A stretch of DNA of 26,039 nt from a virus: the IMG/VR virus record IMGVR_UViG_3300030451_003662, positions 1 to 26,039 of that record; one strand, given 5' to 3'. Position 1 is the stretch's first letter, and each line of letters opens with the position of its first letter. Shown here piece by piece: positions 2,635-20,405 of the stretch. The notes beneath the pieces were generated by a model. It worked only from the letters and a program-made list of their open reading frames with translations, did not search any database and was not told where the DNA came from. The position numbers were made by a program, and so were the translations under genes.

Positions 2635-3005
2635 CACTCAAATAAAGTTGTTTGACCTGTACCTCCAAACATTATGGATTGCTGCTCTAAAGCGTTTAAT
2701 ACTTTAACTTGAGTGTATATTCTTTGTTTTAGGCTAATAATACACTCCTCAAGCTCTTTTAGATCTTTTGCTATATAATATCCGTTTTTTGCCGAACAAA
2801 CGCCGAAGATCAAATTATTAACTCTTATGTGGCTAATAATTTTTCTTACTCGTGGAGCTGAAAGATCTAAGGCCTCACAAATTTTATCAGACTTTACGGC
2901 CTGTTGTTTGCCCTTTTTTGTATTCAACCCCTTTATTATAATTGGTAATAACTCTTTTTCTTGATCTGTCAATTCAAAAGTTATTTCTTCAAAGTTTTTT
3001 AACAT
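2634..3005 (-). CDS. Winged-helix protein with clamp-binding-like tail
   Basis: A 123-residue protein. Residues about 10-80 form a small winged-helix domain (ELTDQEKELLPIIIKGLNTK, then KSDKICEALDLSAPRVRKII as the probable recognition helix, then a GYYIAKD wing). Next comes a helix that may form a coiled coil (about 84-108). The last residues are GQTTLFE; QTTLF fits the QxxLF pattern of bacterial sliding-clamp binding peptides, which usually lie at an exposed terminus as here. A clamp-recruited DNA-binding factor of the replication module is therefore possible, but that is inference from a five-residue motif. It starts 3 bases after the stop of the SSB-like gene. Confidence 0.72.
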   Translation of the reverse strand: MLKNFEEITFELTDQEKELLPIIIKGLNTKKGKQQAVKSDKICEALDLSAPRVRKIISHIRVNNLIFGVCSAKNGYYIAKDLKELEECIISLKQRIYTQVKVLNALEQQSIMFGGTGQTTLFE

Positions 3006-3008
3006 AAA

Positions 3009-3407
3009 TTAAAATGGTAAATTTTCGCTTGAATCGATCCTTTGAATATATTTATCGTGCATAACAAAAGCAACAAATTTCTCTGCAAGCTTTATAACAT
3101 CATTCGAATCTCCGCCATTTGCTATTATAAAGTCTGTAGCACATTTTAAAGAAGATTGACGACATATTAACTCCTCTTTGTCAGATCCTCTATTATTGCT
3201 TTTTGCATAAGATTTTTCATAATTTGTTATAATCTTCAAACTGCCTTTTTCATTTATATTATAATCTATCTCTTGACCTATCGATAAACCGGAATCATCC
3301 CTCTTTTTATATAGTTTTCCAATATCTCCGTTATCTAATTCGATCTCAAATTTATAAAGATCATTCCAAGTACCATCACCGGTAATTTTTTTTACTTTTG
3401 ATTTCAT
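3009..3407 (-). CDS. Possible single-stranded DNA-binding protein
   Basis: A 132-residue protein. The first about 60 residues look like a small beta barrel (KKITGDGTWNDLYKFEIELD, then GKLYKKRDDSGLSIGQEIDY), compatible with an OB fold. After a polar linker comes a helical segment (RQSSLKCATDFIIANGG then VIKLAEKFVAFV), and the protein ends in a polar tail finishing ENLPF. Bacterial and phage SSBs end in an acidic tip with a terminal proline and phenylalanine (for example DDDIPF), so this terminus is suggestive. The position in the replication module agrees. I cannot confirm the fold from sequence alone; an unknown early protein remains possible. It overlaps the upstream gene by ATGA. Confidence 0.6.
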   Translation of the reverse strand: MKSKVKKITGDGTWNDLYKFEIELDNGDIGKLYKKRDDSGLSIGQEIDYNINEKGSLKIITNYEKSYAKSNNRGSDKEELICRQSSLKCATDFIIANGGDSNDVIKLAEKFVAFVMHDKYIQRIDSSENLPF

Positions 3408-10100: not shown

Positions 10101-12132
10101 TCGCTTTTGTGCCGGTCGCTAGTCTAAATCTTCCTACCTTAAGCGGAATCGATTGGCCCGCTAAATATTCGTCCAATAATAAAGTAGAGAATGTAAAATT
10201 ACCTGATACAGTATCTACACCCCATTGTCCCGTAGCGTTTGTAAAGGTTGTTGTGCCGGATTGATCATCGACTTTTATAGCACTCTCAGAAACATTGTCG
10301 GGAGTATCTCCAAAAAGTAAAGTTCCAAAATCTTTATCTAAAGAGTTTCTTGTATTACCCGAACTAATTAAAATATTTTGTAATGAAAAGCTAATCCCCG
10401 CATTGCTATTTAACGCTAAGATCAAACCCGCAAAGGCATTGTTATTTACTAAGGCTAAATTAAATACTTGATTTGTTATACCGCCGGAAGGAGTGTTTGT
10501 GAAAGCTTGACTAATATTCGTTTGTGTTAATACGTTTAAATAAGATAAACCGATCTGAGATAAGTCTGATGTTGTTTGACCGGTTGTAAGGCACGTGAAA
10601 ACATAATCATTGTGAGGGGCACCGGAGGAGTTGAATTGCTTAAATATTTTTAGACTCCAAGTCCACGCCCCAACAAAATCGGGATCAGTTGGAATAAAAA
10701 TTGCATTACCATTATCAGGGCCACCCCCGATAGTTTGATAATATACTTGAGGATTTGCACCAAAGTTTAATTGATTGTATTCCCAACTTGGCCTACTATT
10801 AATTGATGTTGGTGCAGAAGTTACCCAAGAAAATCCACCCCCTTGATTCGGAGTATTTTTTCTTAAATATTTTGTGCTTGCTCCGTCTGTAGCACTTAAC
10901 TCAAAAAACATTTTTACAGACACAAACTGAAAAGCTCCATTGCTCAAAAGTGATAAACTCCCTGTACGATCTTGCTTAAATTGTAGAGGAATATTCAAAT
11001 AAAAATCACTCGCATTAGCTCCGTCAATTATCGTGCCTTGTGTTACTACGGTATCAGTTGAGTTAGGTGATGAAGGTATAGGAAAACCTCTGAAGAAATT
11101 TTCGTTATTACCTGTGCTATATGTTGCCTCAACCTCTTTAACAGGTGCCATAAAATCATAGATCGTGCCTTTTATTTTATCAACCGCTTTTCCGTTTGCA
11201 ATCGAAGTAAGAAAAGTCTCATATAATGTAGTCGCTTCGTTAAAGCCGTTTACCCTTGAGGTTGTAGTGATTTGATTGTAATTGTATATGCTTTGCCTTA
11301 CATTGACAGGATTCGCAAATGTACCTGTATCTAAAGTGTTAAATGAAGAAACTTGAGTAATCCAATATGTATGCCTCCAATAAGTAATTCGAGCCCCCCA
11401 ATGCTTTAATAAAGTTTTTAAGACATCGTAACAATTCATTACACTAAAATTGTTGTTTTCATCTTCATTATAAAACACGCTTGGCTTTACTTTTGTTTCT
11501 GCCATAGGATCTAAAGTAGAGCTTGGAGCTCCCGATCCGTGCCCCGCATTAAACCAATTTATTGCAGTTCGATACCTATAGTTAACACTCGCTCCCTCAG
11601 TCGTGAGAGCCGATCCGCTTTTTAATAAAATCTCTTTTATATAATAAGTAAAAGAATTATAATCCGTATAAATTTCTGAACTATCATAAGGGGCCGAAGA
11701 TCCCTCTTGAACAAAATCAATTTCTTTTAGTAAAGATAATCCGTCTGTAAAGCGTAATCTATATTCATAAGGGTAATATTCATCTACAGTAGATGCGAGT
11801 TCATGCAATAAAAAACCACTCCACAAAGGCCGAGCACTTGTATTACTAAAATAAATGTGTACATATACATCCCTCTCTTGATATGCCGAAGATCTAATAT
11901 CTAATAAAAATTCATCTAATAAAGCATTATCAATTACAAGCGGGATCTCGCAAGTTGATGATAAAATTTCAGTAAATCGGTCTTCGCTCTCTGATTCCCA
12001 TATCATTTTAGGGCCTCCTGATCCAAGAGTTATTTTAGTTGAGCTGCCTGTGTAATTTCTATCCCATATCTCAACATTATATATTAATCCATTATCTGAT
12101 AAAAATTGAGAAGTGAATCTTATTGCTGACAT
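7192..12132 (-). CDS. Giant tail tip and receptor-binding protein, 1646 aa
   Basis: One long protein follows the tape measure where separate tip and fibre genes usually occur. The first about 140 residues (MSAIRFTSQFLSDNGLIYNV, then LLHELASTVDEYYPYEYRLR) look like a baseplate/tip module that anchors to the tail. The middle (about 150-740) is beta-rich tail protein. A threonine-rich linker and the segment GGAGPKAPDDGV (about 734-755) lead to another beta sandwich (about 790-900). From about 1065 to 1425 there are five GNVGIGTTSP-type repeats, typical of trimeric phage fibres and adhesins. The last about 175 residues (from NYALIDCSDS) look like a C1q/TNF-like jelly roll, a likely receptor-binding head. 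No peptidase S74 chaperone is seen. The start shares one base with the tape measure stop (TAATG). Confidence 0.85.
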   Translation of the reverse strand: MSAIRFTSQFLSDNGLIYNVEIWDRNYTGSSTKITLGSGGPKMIWESESEDRFTEILSSTCEIPLVIDNALLDEFLLDIRSSAYQERDVYVHIYFSNTSARPLWSGFLLHELASTVDEYYPYEYRLRFTDGLSLLKEIDFVQEGSSAPYDSSEIYTDYNSFTYYIKEILLKSGSALTTEGASVNYRYRTAINWFNAGHGSGAPSSTLDPMAETKVKPSVFYNEDENNNFSVMNCYDVLKTLLKHWGARITYWRHTYWITQVSSFNTLDTGTFANPVNVRQSIYNYNQITTTSRVNGFNEATTLYETFLTSIANGKAVDKIKGTIYDFMAPVKEVEATYSTGNNENFFRGFPIPSSPNSTDTVVTQGTIIDGANASDFYLNIPLQFKQDRTGSLSLLSNGAFQFVSVKMFFELSATDGASTKYLRKNTPNQGGGFSWVTSAPTSINSRPSWEYNQLNFGANPQVYYQTIGGGPDNGNAIFIPTDPDFVGAWTWSLKIFKQFNSSGAPHNDYVFTCLTTGQTTSDLSQIGLSYLNVLTQTNISQAFTNTPSGGITNQVFNLALVNNNAFAGLILALNSNAGISFSLQNILISSGNTRNSLDKDFGTLLFGDTPDNVSESAIKVDDQSGTTTFTNATGQWGVDTVSGNFTFSTLLLDEYLAGQSIPLKVGRFRLATGTKAIRQNDGTKSRLRFVNPITVLIEQQSPQDPTIRYGFIRGTFHLLAGEWDYEGFELDNATLTTTTTTTVVSGGAGPKAPDDGVIAFMTKPPNINNDLVSLNNVITTTKSAIEPIGTDLIADQYFASSSNWNLTTGWSITDNTAVLVTGEGDRTLTPSSDTLAASKNYRGVIIIDAITGTLQITDGSSVLKEFTESDGTGGHVFDFTTTAQYSALTITGDATTTTTLSFLQVNELQSTTSFDINAIGEAVFKTGDKFSLISLATGSVFDLTINSDQSASDTTLTITSTELKEIIPINSIVTFNKKNLIKQYQDDTLQEVTDNGNTTTNSIMIGSSSTPTQTLDVNGNTLTSGTTFIGDTFTKIQSASGHLLLSNLSSSGGVKFRTNSVDVVFIDSSGNVGIGTTSPSEKLEVNGNIKLGDGSQKNIIGAINNNLGIFANPNGTDEGILFSTDDGSTIEMIILNGGNVGIGTTSPYDKLQIGNSDSAPSFGIDPNVATTVSSTTNDDEVAYQLYVNDGNNNIRSKFFLNDNSRTVGFDTTYSTDFQAFVFKLVNSEVMRINSSGNLLIGTTTDFGGKLNIVGTTSDNSSFGLIIKNSIGNILFSVRNDGVVQVPSGYFWAQHSNGMFSTGSIKARGGITNDLGTLEIGGGGNTDAMNITSDGNVLIGTTSDDGSNKLQVSGTASFVNSGNGQIDITRTSGATTFIQSQSATGVVGTSTNHNLDLKTNGSTRLRITTGGNVGIGTSSPSEKLDVNGNAKIQGTIANDNFTIPNASGSAGQVLKYPSSGSTLEWGSVSGGSALTNYALIDCSDSTVASSSTDGESNAVVIPFNTKVVSGTSNTINLTGNEGIADIENSANAWYFTTAGNYEFSWTITTNTNIVNNRILSGVKLQRGVVVDDTTLTWTDYNPTKSFIYDRGTGSIRQGSTHSQTIVAQDSTQYYWRLVLWKESASNSSTTSITVTLGTNLIIKQIE
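7850..8925 (-). repeat. GNVGIGTTSP-type fibre repeats
   Basis: Five recognisable copies of a repeat are encoded within the giant tail protein, of the form (S/G/D)GN(V/L)(G/L)IGT(T/S)(S/T)x...KLxVxG. They lie near 8870-8925, 8675-8725, 8380-8430, 8070-8131 and 7850-7905. Two of the copies (8870-8925 and 7850-7905) are close at the DNA level, sharing much of the stretch that encodes SPSEKL. A partial copy lies near 9050-9100. Spacing is irregular (about 65-110 residues), as in fibre shafts built from separate beta modules rather than a strict tandem array. Confidence 0.75.
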
Positions 12133-13988
12133 TATACCGCTCTTAATCTTTTATTAGTCATTCTTTCATTGCTTATAAAAATATCGGAGCCGCTTATCCT
12201 TCCGAATACTTCTACCTTTTGAGATCCTCCTCCGATCATTGTTTTTAATTTTGATAAAGGAGCTACTACTTCCGGATTAGATTTTACTCCTGAATATTCT
12301 CCCATCAATGCCATAGTTGGCCCGCTTATTATACCGCCTTCTGCTAACGTAACTCCTAACATACTACCAAGATTGTCTTTAATATTTACCATACTAAGAG
12401 CATCTTTAATATTTTTACCTCCTAATAAAACCTGTATTGCAAGCATTATAGCAAGCTGAATTAATAATCTTTTTATAACTTCTTTAATAGATCTAATAAA
12501 AGCTTGAGCAAATGACTCTGTGCCCTCAATAGCACTAGTCATAGAGTCTCTGATAACGTCTCCGAATAATGCCATTTTCAAAGTCATTTTATCCGTATTC
12601 TCTATAACCTTATCTGATAACATATTAAACTCATAAAAAGCTTCAGGCATCGGAAATATGTTCATTTGCCCACCGCCTCCGGTAGCAATTTCAGCCCCGC
12701 CGAAGCCTCCTAATTTTAAAGGATTCATTAAATCTTTTAAAGCATTCCCAATCTCTGCTGCTTGGCTTTTCATAGAATCCCCGAAAGATTTGAAATCATG
12801 TTCAAAGTCTTTTGTCTTATCCCTAAATCCATCTAATGTGGTTATTGCATCACTAAAATCAATAGGGATTGGATCTTTACCGATTAACTTCCTTAAGAAA
12901 TTTAATCTCTTTTCTATTTTTTCAAAAAAGTCTGTAATAAAAAATTCGGTAATATCTATTATAGCATTTCTAAAAGATCCAAAATCGCTTAACCTTTCCT
13001 TCAATGCCTCAAAGTTATCTCTAACATATAAAAAAGCTGCAACAAGTCCGCCTAATGCTACAATTAATAATCCGGTGCTGCTAAAAAGTAAAGCAAATTT
13101 TGATACTAATAATCCACCTATTGATATTAGCGGGCCTATTGCCGCTACAATTAGTGTGATATTCATCGCAGCCGTCTTAAACTCAGGAGATAAGTTTCTT
13201 AAAAATCCTAATAAATTTTGAAAAGCATCTACAAGTTTTTGAGCAATGGGTAATAACATATTACCAAATTCAGCTCCTAAGTCTGTTACGTCTCCTCTTA
13301 AAATTCTGACTTGATTCGCAAATTGATTTTGGGTACGTTGAAAATCCCCTACGGCTTTACCGCTTTGCCTTAATGCTAAATCAAAAGTTAATTGTGCCTT
13401 AGCAACCCTATCAAGTTCTTTGAATACTAATCCTTGTTCTTCTGCGAATCTTTTTAGATCGGCTTCCGTGATTGCTATTCCTAAAGATTTTATTGCCTCT
13501 CGTTCTCCAAGTAACGCTTTAGTCAAAGCTTCACTCGCTCCCTTAGATCCTCCGGCAAAGTTTGTAAAAGATGCAAGATCTACCGCTAATTCATTAACCT
13601 GTTTAGATAAATTTAAAGCCTCATCTTCTGTAAATCCAAAACCTACTAAAAGATCTCCAGTACTACCTAACATATCAAGAGCCGCTTGGCTTGATAATCC
13701 AAAACTCTCTTTAAAGGTTGATGCGGTTTTAGTTGCATCGTGTTGTATAGAACTGAATACAGTATTAAATTTAGATCGTGTTTCATTTAGATCTGAAGCT
13801 AATTTAATTGATGCTCCTCCCAATCCTAAAACAGGTAAAGTAACATTCCTTGTAATATTGCTACCTATGTTAGATAAGTTTTTACCGAATTTATTAACTC
13901 TTCTTTGAGCTTTTCGCATAGCTCGGTCAAAGCCTCTTAGATCGGCACCGAATGCCACTGTCAAAAATCCTACACTCTTATTTGCCAT
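12132..13988 (-). CDS. Tail tape measure protein
   Basis: A 618-residue protein. The N-terminus (VGFLTVAFGADLRGFDRAMR followed by KAQRRVNKFGKNLSNIG) is the typical start of phage tape measures. The region around 90-230 (ALDMLGSTGDLLVGFGFTED, LAVDLASFTNFAGG) is the conserved TMP domain. Hydrophobic segments near 275-320 (AAMNITLIVAAIGPLISIGG, LLIVALGGLVAAFLYV) and near 510-525 (LLIQLAIMLAIQVLLGG) could enter the host membrane during DNA delivery. By the usual rule of about 1.5 angstrom per residue, the tail would be near 90 nm, a siphovirus value. The gene follows the frameshifted chaperone gene (11-base overlap), the standard order in siphoviruses. Confidence 0.93.
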   Translation of the reverse strand: MANKSVGFLTVAFGADLRGFDRAMRKAQRRVNKFGKNLSNIGSNITRNVTLPVLGLGGASIKLASDLNETRSKFNTVFSSIQHDATKTASTFKESFGLSSQAALDMLGSTGDLLVGFGFTEDEALNLSKQVNELAVDLASFTNFAGGSKGASEALTKALLGEREAIKSLGIAITEADLKRFAEEQGLVFKELDRVAKAQLTFDLALRQSGKAVGDFQRTQNQFANQVRILRGDVTDLGAEFGNMLLPIAQKLVDAFQNLLGFLRNLSPEFKTAAMNITLIVAAIGPLISIGGLLVSKFALLFSSTGLLIVALGGLVAAFLYVRDNFEALKERLSDFGSFRNAIIDITEFFITDFFEKIEKRLNFLRKLIGKDPIPIDFSDAITTLDGFRDKTKDFEHDFKSFGDSMKSQAAEIGNALKDLMNPLKLGGFGGAEIATGGGGQMNIFPMPEAFYEFNMLSDKVIENTDKMTLKMALFGDVIRDSMTSAIEGTESFAQAFIRSIKEVIKRLLIQLAIMLAIQVLLGGKNIKDALSMVNIKDNLGSMLGVTLAEGGIISGPTMALMGEYSGVKSNPEVVAPLSKLKTMIGGGSQKVEVFGRISGSDIFISNERMTNKRLRAV

Positions 13989-14642
13989 TTTTAAAATCGT
14001 TTAATTTTTTCATGTACTCTGCTCTTTCTTTTAGCTTTTTCAAATCAATTTCTTTTTCTTCTTTTTCCCAATCAAATTGTATAAGATCAGTTGGCTTTAT
14101 ACGTTTACCCCTTTCGAGTTGTATATTAATCAGCAAAGTTGTTTGCCATCTTATTCTCTGCCAATCTGATTGCTCTTGATTATTTCTTACTTCTTGATAA
14201 CCTTCAAGCATATTAAAAAATTGTCGAGGAATCATATCATAAAATTCACTGACTGATAACCTTAACATACCAAAAGCGATTTGCTCTAATCTGTCCCAAG
14301 TCAGTTGTTCGCCTGCTTGGGTTTCTGCTTTTTTTCGCTTTTAGTCATTGAGCTCATCATTTCTCCTAAAGTCTCCATACATCTGCCTATAGCATCAAAA
14401 TCGCTATCTACTAAATCAGCTAATCCATCAACATCTAATTTCATTTCTTGCTTAGCGGCTCTATATCCATCTTCGATACCGCAATACATTAAAATTAAAG
14501 CGTTATCCAAAGTCATTTTTTCGCCAAGCTTATCCAACTCTTGCAATGTTGTGTTAGTTAATTTAGAGTACTTCCTCAAGGCATTAAAGCCAAATTTTAT
14601 AGGATGCTCCTCGTTTCCAATTTTTATTATTTTATAATTCAT
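13978..14642 (-). CDS. Tail assembly chaperone GT (-1 frameshift product)
   Basis: The fusion made when ribosomes slip -1 on the heptamer A AAA AAG at 14334-14328. The first 105 codons are those of protein G; re-reading from base 14328 then gives AETQAGEQLTWDRLEQIAFG and continues, in the same frame, into the reading frame that ends at 13978 (LRLSVSEFYDMIPRQFFNML and on). The expected product is 221 residues. The WDRLEQIAFGMLRLSVSEFY motif is the classic second half of phage tail assembly chaperones and is cut in two if the downstream frame is called as a separate gene from its internal ATG at 14268. GT is thought to bind the tape measure while G coats it until tail tube subunits assemble. 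Confidence 0.85.
14295..14334 (-). promoter_or_regulatory. Programmed -1 ribosomal frameshift site
   Basis: In the minus-strand mRNA, the codons GAA AAA AAG place the heptamer A AAA AAG (14334-14328) in the X XXY YYZ register, the most efficient bacterial -1 slippery sequence. After a 6-base spacer comes a stem-loop: CCCAAG (14321-14316) pairs with CTTGGG (14300-14295) and CAG (14315-14313) with CTG (14304-14302), with one bulged A and an 8-base loop. The G stop codon (TGA, 14303-14301) lies inside the hairpin. Spacer length and stem position are right for stimulation of frameshifting. Confidence 0.85.
14301..14642 (-). CDS. Tail assembly chaperone G
   Basis: The unshifted product, 113 residues, ending in a lysine- and glutamine-rich tail (KSEKKQKPKQANN). 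The fold is the helical chaperone type: a short beta start (NYKIIKIGNEEHPIKFGFNA), LRKYSKLTNTTLQELDKLGE, and a helix around IEDGYRAAKQ. It binds the tape measure during tail assembly and is absent or nearly absent from the virion. The ratio of G to GT is set by the frameshift site at its end. It starts with an ATG whose bases overlap a TGA in the frame of the tail tube gene (14639-14642). The gap to the tail tube gene holds a hairpin described separately. Confidence 0.85.
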   Translation of the reverse strand: MNYKIIKIGNEEHPIKFGFNALRKYSKLTNTTLQELDKLGEKMTLDNALILMYCGIEDGYRAAKQEMKLDVDGLADLVDSDFDAIGRCMETLGEMMSSMTKSEKKQKPKQANN

Positions 14643-14713: not shown

Positions 14714-15163
14714 TTAAGTGATTGTTAATGCTCCTGTCCCTTGTAAAGTTACTGAGTAAGTTGCATTATCTTCTGTACCCCCTGTTAAAGCTACAGAAGT
14801 TAAAAATGCTTTTCCGGAATAAAGCTTTTCACCAGTGTTAGTGCCTGCCGCACTAAATTCAAAGTCAAAAGATTGTCTTGCCGTTATTACATTTGTTTCT
14901 ATAAGATCGTCAACTCCATTTGTTAATGCTGCCGGAGTAGATGCTCCATCATTATAAGCATATAATCCTTCTACATCTAATGTAAAAGATCTAACGCCTT
15001 CAAGGTTTTCTTGGAATCCACTACTTGACTTATTTGTTATATCTCTAAGCTCTAAAGATACATTTAATGTGCAAGTCTGTGAAAACGCTATAAGCTCCGT
15101 AGAGCCACCCGCCGAGCTGAAGATCTTGAGATCTGTTCCGTTTATTGGGCCGTTTGCTGCCAT
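14714..15163 (-). CDS. Major tail tube protein
   Basis: A 149-residue tail tube subunit. The pattern NGTDLKIFSSAGGSTELIAF, then LNVSLELRDITNKSSSGFQE near residues 33-52 and GVRSFTLDVEGLYAY, is the typical beta-sandwich of the phage tail tube family related to Phage_tail_2. The C-terminal part (GKAFLTSVALTGGTEDNATY, SVTLQGTGALTIT) gives the last strands. It forms the stacked hexameric rings of the tail around the tape measure. The gene lies between the neck genes and the chaperone genes, the standard siphovirus position. It ends with two consecutive TAA codons, after which the frame stays open again as noted separately. Confidence 0.9.
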   Translation of the reverse strand: MAANGPINGTDLKIFSSAGGSTELIAFSQTCTLNVSLELRDITNKSSSGFQENLEGVRSFTLDVEGLYAYNDGASTPAALTNGVDDLIETNVITARQSFDFEFSAAGTNTGEKLYSGKAFLTSVALTGGTEDNATYSVTLQGTGALTIT

Positions 15164-18653: not shown

Positions 18654-20405
18654 TTATTTTCTCTTTTTAATTTCTAATTTTAGTCCAAGAAGAGAATGCT
18701 TGACTAATTTCTTTGTTTCTTCAAATTCTTTGAGGCCTCTTTGAGCTACTATTACATCACTCTCAGCTTGACTATATGCCGGATATGTTACAACTGAAAT
18801 GTCATATAAAGAATCGATCTCCTCGATTGTTCTTACGTTGTTTCCATCATCGTCATTACTCCATGAATCTTTTTTTACTGTGAAAGCAAATGAACTTTGA
18901 TTAATATTATTATTTTTCATATTAACTAAAAGATCATTAGCATAAGTTGTATTTGGCATTTCGAACTCATATCTTAAACCCTTACTATCTGCCGTTAATT
19001 TTAAAGTGCCTTCTCCATATTTCGAACGGGCTAATATTAAATTAGGATCGTGATTGATCAGGGCCCTTGTGTCAGATCGATTGATTAGATCTTGTGTAAA
19101 AGCTCCTTCTTTAATATATTCATAAAAGTTACCTAAATTTTCACTTCTTGAATTATATACACTTCCGTAACCTACAACCACATTTCTTTTTTGTCCGTCA
19201 ATCTCTCGTGTTTCAATAGAACTATTAATACTAAAAGTTCTTTTTTCAATATTAGGATTGTCGTTTCTTTTCATTGGCTTTTCCTCATCTTCTTCGTGAG
19301 CTCCCGATTTCTCCGGCTTTTCTTCATCTTCCATATGGGCCCCTGATTTTTCGGGATCTTCTTCTTCCATATGAGCCCCTGACTTTTCCGGCTTTTTTTC
19401 CTCGTCTTTATGATAATGAGCTTCTTCCGTTTTTTCTTTACCATCTTCCATAGCACTTAATATATCATCGTGTGAATTGAAAGGCATATATACCTTCATA
19501 CCATCAAGCTCGTGCTCGTGGCTTCCGCTACCTCCCATATTTTTTGCTACATTTTCCGCCTCCTCTTTAGTTGAATAGAGAGGCATTTCGATACCATCAG
19601 TAATCATAGTACCTACTAATTGTCTATTTTCGTTTTCCATATAATATTTTTTTTCGTCTAATTTTTTTCTAACGGGGTGATTTTTTGGTAATAGATCTGT
19701 ATCGTGTTTACCTCTTCTAAACTTTCCATTTTTTAAAGCGTAAAGGAAAGAATTAGTACGGGCAAGGGCCCACTGCTCAGGTGATTTTACGCTTGGCCTG
19801 ACCGATTGAGGATTAGTATGATAAGCCCCTACTCCTCTATCAAAAACTTTTTCTAAAGTGTTTAAAGTAACAGAAGCATTGTAACCTAAATTTTTACCCT
19901 TAACTTCTTCATTATGATCGTCTCTTTTTTTCTCAAGAGATTTTTTAATTTTTGCTGATACTCTTTTTTCTTCTTCTTTTACGATCTCTTTCCTTTTTCT
20001 TTCACTAAAAGCAAATCCAAAATCCCCGCCCCATAATGCTATTGCAATCCTTCCATTTGACGGGTACCCCTTTTCACCGACCTCATAACCTTCAGCCTTT
20101 TTATCCACTTGGTGCCTTGAGTGAAAAGCAAACATTCTTGTAACTCTATCAGGAGTTAATGAATTATTAATAATCATTCTTGCCGTACTTACCCCAACAT
20201 TCGTACCGCCTCTACCAAATTCTTTACGCCACTCCAAACCTTTTTTTGCTTCGTCAATCATTCCTTGAGTTGGAGTTAGATCAATATCACTTACGGCTCT
20301 ATAATAATCTTTATTATCATTTTCGGCCTCAGCTTTTGAATCATATTTACACGATCCTGTTTGCCCAAACTTCCATTTACCATTGTTACATTTATAAGCC
20401 GGCAT
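18654..20405 (-). CDS. Multi-module prohead protease, 583 aa
   Basis: The protease domain (about 388-560) carries the HK97 prohead protease pattern: VVVGYGSVYNSRSENLGNFY, H452 in LINHDPNLILARS, S504-S505 in NINQSSFAFTV and LYDISVVTYPAY. It cleaves the capsid delta domain. Unusually, about 385 residues precede it: a short cysteine module (C6 and C19 in KCNNGKWKFG and GSCKYDSKAEAE), a module with FSRHQVDKKAEGYEV-like residues, AIALWGGDFGFAFSE and QWALARTNSFLYALKNGKFR (about 80-245), a module ending SGSHEHELDGMKVYMPF (about 265-310), and an acidic PEKSGAH repeat (339-370). Typical proteases of this family are about 200 residues. The start overlaps the portal gene by 14 bases. The N-terminal part may be an internal head or scaffold module. 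Confidence 0.9.
   Translation of the reverse strand: MPAYKCNNGKWKFGQTGSCKYDSKAEAENDNKDYYRAVSDIDLTPTQGMIDEAKKGLEWRKEFGRGGTNVGVSTARMIINNSLTPDRVTRMFAFHSRHQVDKKAEGYEVGEKGYPSNGRIAIALWGGDFGFAFSERKRKEIVKEEEKRVSAKIKKSLEKKRDDHNEEVKGKNLGYNASVTLNTLEKVFDRGVGAYHTNPQSVRPSVKSPEQWALARTNSFLYALKNGKFRRGKHDTDLLPKNHPVRKKLDEKKYYMENENRQLVGTMITDGIEMPLYSTKEEAENVAKNMGGSGSHEHELDGMKVYMPFNSHDDILSAMEDGKEKTEEAHYHKDEEKKPEKSGAHMEEEDPEKSGAHMEDEEKPEKSGAHEEDEEKPMKRNDNPNIEKRTFSINSSIETREIDGQKRNVVVGYGSVYNSRSENLGNFYEYIKEGAFTQDLINRSDTRALINHDPNLILARSKYGEGTLKLTADSKGLRYEFEMPNTTYANDLLVNMKNNNINQSSFAFTVKKDSWSNDDDGNNVRTIEEIDSLYDISVVTYPAYSQAESDVIVAQRGLKEFEETKKLVKHSLLGLKLEIKKRK
19290..19395 (-). repeat. Acidic PEKSGAH repeat in the protease
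   Basis: Three copies of PEKSGAH(M)E(E/D)(E/D)E, at residues 339-345, 351-357 and 364-370 of the protease protein, with spacing of 12 and 13 residues. The DNA copies are similar but not identical (synonymous changes such as CCGATTTCTCC versus CCTGATTTTTC on the plus strand), so the duplication is not very recent. The segment is highly acidic and probably disordered, a flexible linker between the N-terminal modules and the protease. Confidence 0.8.

Follow-up and report, generated by a model that had tools for sequence, protein, structure and literature searches.

A conserved heptamer and a covarying hairpin point to programmed −1 frameshifting of the lambda G/GT kind in a phage related to those of Bacteroidota

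The window, by which we mean the whole 26,039-nt stretch of DNA analysed here, is a 26-kb virus record in which the structural genes are read from the minus strand. The gene order is major tail protein, G, T, and tape measure protein, with G and T overlapping and T lying in the −1 frame (Table 1). The T part that would be read after a shift begins A E T Q A G E Q L T W D R L E Q I A F G, and it matches phrog_16333 (E 1e-20) and also phrog_7377. Matches to the named TAC families TIGR02216, Phage_TAC_6, and Phage_TAC_12 were below the cut-off only, those to TIGR02216 and Phage_TAC_6 being weak and located on T. Profile searches of the PDB gave no credible relative, and no close G homologue was found among the cultured phages searched. 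The assignment of G and T as tail-assembly chaperones is well supported by gene order, the PHROG tail matches, and the sub-threshold TAC matches, but falls short of proof by homology to a TAC that has been characterised. Elsewhere in the window, a 583-aa ORF (18654–20405, minus strand) has internal near-repeats (EEKPEKSGAHMEDEEKPEKSGAHEEDEEKP) between its N-terminal part and a prohead-protease-like region.

Table 1. Features of the G/T junction and its flanking genes (window coordinates)
Feature	Position	Strand	Basis
Major tail (tube) protein, upstream of G	14714..15163	−	phrog_1407, E 1.4e-24; PF06199 above cut-off
G-like ORF, 113 aa; predicted product of unshifted ribosomes	14301..14642	−	ORF; phrog_2115 tail protein, E 8.6e-7; follows major tail protein
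Slippery heptamer A_AAA_AAG, zero-frame gaA AAA AAG (E K K), in G register	14328..14334	−	Sequence and homologous loci
6-nt spacer CAGAAA	14322..14327	−	Sequence
Full hairpin arms, CCCAAG+CAG and CTG+A+CTTGGG	14321–14313 and 14304–14295	−	
Core helix, 5′ arm CCCAAG; covaries at pairs 1, 5, and 6	14316..14321	−	Sequence and covariation
Upper 3-bp helix, 5′ half CAG; lineage-specific	14313..14315	−	Fold; unpaired in part of the family
Upper helix, 3′ half CTG; overlaps the stop codon	14302..14304	−	Fold and family comparison
Bulged A	14301	−	Fold
G stop codon TGA, within the 3′ half of the hairpin	14301..14303	−	Sequence
Core helix, 3′ arm CTTGGG; also codes, in the T domain, for Trp and for parts of the flanking Thr and Asp	14295..14300	−	Sequence
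T part, read after the predicted shift; stop 13978–13980; 14328 is the re-read G	13978..14328	−	221-aa fusion
Tape measure protein, downstream	12132..13988	−	16 PHROG families, mostly annotated tape measure, best E 4e-23

The end of G reads ...gaA AAA AAG cag aaa CCC AAG cag gcg aac aac TGA. An initial annotation of this DNA had proposed a frameshift cassette at 14295–14334, coordinates which proved exact to the base. As it had described, A AAA AAG is correctly in register where G ends and is followed by a 6-base spacer, the stop codon of G falls inside the stem, and the −1 frame leads into a 221-residue product; the −1 reading across the G stop is open, and the fusion, ending at 13978, is exactly 221 residues long. 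The stem had been described as 9 bp (6 + 3, with a bulged A). A stem of that form does fold in the window, but the conserved helix comprises the lower 6 bp only; the upper 3 bp and the bulged A recur in several lineages and are unpaired in others. The predicted stability of the hairpin is −13.6 kcal/mol (z = −5.0), and none of 200 shuffled sequences was as stable. AAAAAAG is found 37 times on the two strands of the window, and at one of these only, the G/T site, is there a GC-rich 6-bp stem 4–9 nt downstream. The number of such heptamer-plus-stem combinations expected per shuffled window is 0.05 for spacers of 4–9 nt, falling to 0.015 if the spacer must be exactly 6 nt.

We compared the junction with relatives comprising viral contigs, fetched with G, T, and their alignments, one Flavobacteriales contig, and two cultured phages. 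The 168 loci retrieved include overlapping fetches and represent 96 distinct junctions; T is in the −1 frame relative to G in all of them (168/168 loci, 96/96 distinct junctions). All 167 close loci have either AAAAAAG or the lambda-type GGGAAAG, then 6 nt, then a complementary 6-bp stem of Watson–Crick and G-U pairs, which encloses a loop of 15, 18, 21, or 24 nt. Thus, when we looked for homologues that keep both frames and lack the heptamer, which the initial annotation had named as counter-evidence, every close homologue turned out to have a canonical heptamer. As the first stem search, of the 167 loci, had required a spacer of 6, we ran a control that scanned spacers of 0–15. A perfect GC-rich 6-bp stem was present at 6 nt in 66/66 distinct junctions, and there were none at 1–3 or 8–12 nt. 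The same control gave 16 stems at spacer 5 and 19 at spacer 7, which we interpret as the same helix in an extended or shifted register. Furthermore, the core helix is present in the minimum free energy fold of 55/55 distinct sequences, with a mean z of −3.6.

We also scanned a viral collection of 2.9 million contigs with the sequence pattern heptamer-N6-SCCAAS-N12..27-STTGGS, which gave at least 119 readable loci, at least 81 of them G–T junctions. Matches without G or T (36) were used as background, and two loci with T only were set aside. Among the matches listed, the two arms are complementary in 79 of the 81 G–T junctions versus 12 of the 36 others, where chance would give about 25%. When some of the remaining loci were read individually, L286, which had been counted in the background, turned out to be a distant G–T junction with the same cassette, and L275 also is a distant G–T pair with that cassette. 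Two other distant G–T loci, L242 and L285, keep five of the six core pairs and have one mismatch. No Rfam family matches the signal.

The variation in the heptamer itself bears on whether the two frames might be joined by RNA polymerase slipping on the A7 run, rather than by the ribosome. The coding strand does have a run of seven A residues, and relatives have six to eight, but runs of 6–7 are short for transcriptional slippage. On the tree, the heptamer switches a single time to the lambda type GGGAAAG, in one clade, and these relatives have just three A residues at the same place, with spacer and stem unchanged. The constraint acts on the register of the heptamer and on the stem, not on the length of the run, and transcriptional slippage is accordingly an explanation to which we give almost no credence.

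The arms of the core helix differ among relatives and yet remain complementary. The pairs of arms seen are CCCAAG/CTTGGG, GCCAAG/CTTGGC, GCCAAC/GTTGGC, GCCAGC/GCTGGC, and CCCAGG/CCTGGG, with GCCAAG/CTTGGT, containing a G-U pair, in one small clade. On a quick tree of 94 sequences, built without the junction, pair 1 changed three times, pair 5 twice, and pair 6 once, and an unpaired state was never seen. Compensatory evolution is therefore observed at three of the six core pairs, although the inferred pair changes are few (five to six). Pairs 2–4 are uninformative because they never vary, their 3′ side being held by the invariant Trp codon. The covariation score of 16 representatives was 0.334, versus 0.132 for shuffled and at most 0.104 for slid alignments. 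The encoded amino acids follow the pairing. The residue after the invariant Trp is Asp if the 5′ arm starts with C; it is Arg, Gln, or Pro if the arm starts with G, and Cys with the G-U pair. Likewise, the residue before the invariant Trp is either Thr/Ser(TCT) or Ser(AGT), in step with pair 6, whilst pair 5 is maintained through the synonymous changes ACT to ACC and AGT to AGC. Judging from these comparisons, the stem is kept by compensatory changes, and the protein gives way to RNA pairing at the start of the T domain. That a signal with matching hairpin changes recurs in dozens of related phages argues that it is real and, on evolutionary evidence, functional; in kind it is ordinary.

The T motif, W..LE.IAFG, is strongly conserved (W3, E7, and F11 are nearly invariant, and A10 and G12 are invariant), and 92 of the 96 junctions, including that of the window, have no ATG, GTG, or TTG in the T frame ahead of it. 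Separate initiation therefore cannot make the whole domain. It could nevertheless be supposed that ribosomes reinitiate once past the G stop, so that T is a separate gene which starts from an ATG at or near 14268, and that the overlap is ordinary operon packing. That ATG lies about 33 nt past the G stop and opens a 96-aa ORF; most homologues have an ATG 10–13 codons after the Trp codon, and Cellulophaga phage phi39:1 and Bacteroides phage F4 are both annotated with two genes. However, a start at 14268 would drop the conserved motif that lies upstream of it, the position of the ATG varies among homologues, and the absence of a T-frame start before the motif in 92/96 junctions, together with the fixed 6-nt spacer and the covarying stem, would be left unexplained. 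We therefore consider a separate T gene extremely improbable. The initial annotation had claimed that the chaperone motif is interrupted by the internal ATG, and the ATG at 14268 indeed falls within the conserved motif. In related phages, gene calls wrongly give T as a shorter gene or a hypothetical protein, and the heptamer-N6-stem pattern used for our scan is usable for correcting such annotations.

The hairpin could also belong to a larger structure, in that it might form an H-type pseudoknot or be enclosed by an outer helix resembling the HIV anchoring helix, and this would refine the frameshift reading rather than replace it. The outer helix would pair AAAAGCGA, just upstream of the heptamer, with TCGCTTTT downstream; an outer pairing of 11 bp is predicted in the window (111-nt fold, z −4.7), and some matches between the loop and downstream sequence occur. 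We examined both structures by a swap test in 16 divergent lineages. For loop–downstream pairing, 79% of swaps equalled or exceeded the native pairing, and for upstream–downstream pairing 48% of swaps were at least as good as native; moreover, the outer helix is strong in the window only. A larger structure is thus unlikely, and on the swap test we reject the pseudoknot, and likewise an outer helix around the heptamer, as features of the family. In the window itself (14255–14350, minus strand), a possible 11-bp helix would join ACUAAAAGCGA, upstream of the heptamer, to UCGCUUUUGGU, just before the internal ATG. We likewise rejected an internal Shine–Dalgarno stimulator for the window signal, as none is present at the distance found in dnaX: the window has no SD-like core 4–17 nt upstream of the heptamer. 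Among the family, GGAGG or AGGAG occurs in 14 of 56 distinct cores.

The relatives include phages of Cellulophaga and Bacteroides, and one homologue is in a Flavobacteriales MAG. Because of these relatives, the host is probably a member of the Bacteroidota. The phage is marine, and the phages that carry the signal probably infect marine Bacteroidota. In E. coli, slippage at A_AAA_AAG requires a tRNA-Lys with the anticodon UUU. The only tRNA-Lys found in the Flavobacteriales MAG with the homologue, which may be incomplete, has this anticodon.

Taken together, we conclude that the window signal is almost certainly one for programmed −1 ribosomal frameshifting of the same kind as lambda G/GT. The majority of ribosomes would end at the G stop. 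At A_AAA_AAG, the P- and A-site tRNA-Lys would re-pair one base back, with the hairpin 6 nt downstream positioned at the mRNA entry channel during the slip, and the shifted minority would read on into T to give the 221-aa G–T fusion. If lambda is taken as the model, G and G–T would act as tail-assembly chaperones at a fixed ratio, G coating the tape measure protein and T recruiting the major tail protein. The occurrence of the shift, its efficiency, and these chaperone roles are what we infer.

In lambda, G and G–T are produced by −1 frameshifting at a ratio of about 30:1; the tape measure protein is the partner of G, and the tail tube protein that of T (PMC5009743). The frameshift in tail genes is conserved in dsDNA phages (Xu, Hendrix and Duda 2004, reviewed in PMC5009743), and in an HK97-like cluster the tail-chaperone frameshifts were measured at 6–7% (PMC3711429). 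Each sequence feature of the lambda G/GT class that we tested was found in the window, namely the gene placement, the −1 frame, an X XXY YYZ heptamer, and a T that is not separately initiated. The likeness extends to the order major tail protein, G, T, tape measure protein, with a −1 overlap and a canonical heptamer near the G stop, and some relatives of the window use lambda's own heptamer, G_GGA_AAG. In contrast to lambda, the window has A_AAA_AAG and, exactly 6 nt beyond it, a hairpin that is conserved and covaries, and the protein sequences are just remotely related. To our knowledge, no such hairpin stimulator has been established for lambda.

Another comparison is offered by E. coli dnaX, which also has A_AAA_AAG followed at a short distance by a simple stem–loop (PMC5009743). 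The usual spacer range is 5–9 nt (PMC5009743), within which the stem of the window falls, and a C adjacent on the 3′ side is reported to favour shifting at A_AAA_AAG (PMC5009743); a C adjoins the 3′ end of the heptamer in the window and in most relatives. However, dnaX has an internal Shine–Dalgarno sequence 10 nt upstream and an 11-bp stem, whereas the window has no SD-like core and a stem of 6 + 3 bp, and gene and function differ. Homologous T domains in the same gene order occur in Bacteroides phage F4 and Cellulophaga phage phi39:1, each of which is annotated with a pair of hypothetical proteins. In F4, a run of A9 precedes the G stop and T is in the −1 frame, but the SCCAAS/STTGGS stem is missing.

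The window signal is thus a new and unusually well-supported member of the lambda G/GT type. A downstream stimulator in tail-chaperone frameshifts rarely has comparative backing; here it does, in that the spacer is fixed, changes in the stem are compensatory, and the amino acids track the RNA pairing. What our analysis adds is the strength of this comparative proof and a hairpin-free sister architecture, whilst the mechanism itself is textbook. The literature that we searched, coverage of which is incomplete, nowhere describes this signal for Bacteroidota phages.

The sister lineage was found by a scan led by the T domain of phi39:1. In its 24 distinct junctions (L323–L397), G_GGA_AAG directly abuts a TAG or TAA stop and the −1 relation is kept. 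The flanks are strongly conserved (e.g., L329 around 2950–3010; signal GAGGGAAAGTAG), but the 24 distinct sequences gave no consensus hairpin (RNAalifold −2.2 kcal/mol). Three members of the window family (L100, L157, and L166) have G_GGA_AAG followed immediately by TAA, with the hairpin still 6 nt downstream; since the TAA adjoins the heptamer and the hairpin starts at 6 nt, their stop codon lies within the spacer. A relative of phi39:1 (L322) combines G_GGA_AAG and a 6-nt spacer with a stem of unrelated sequence, CCCCG/CGGGG; the spacer is thus retained and the stem sequence replaced. Based on these loci, we suggest, at about even odds, that homologous chaperone genes use two interchangeable −1 stimulators, one being the covarying hairpin at a 6-nt spacing and the other a stop that abuts G_GGA_AAG, with conserved flanks, in the absence of a hairpin; on this reading, the three loci with both a TAA and a hairpin would be intermediates carrying both stimulators. 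Such a family would be a natural experiment in which the stimulators are exchanged and the product ratio is kept, and the hairpin-free sister lineage makes the exchange of stimulators directly testable.

The one apparent exception that we found to the −1 relation is Cellulophaga phage phi39:1 itself (L170 3930–3962, KC821626.1). As deposited, its T is +1/−2 to G at a run of A8, which is either a real variant or an error in homopolymer length, and its gp20 is annotated from an ATG lying inside the T motif.
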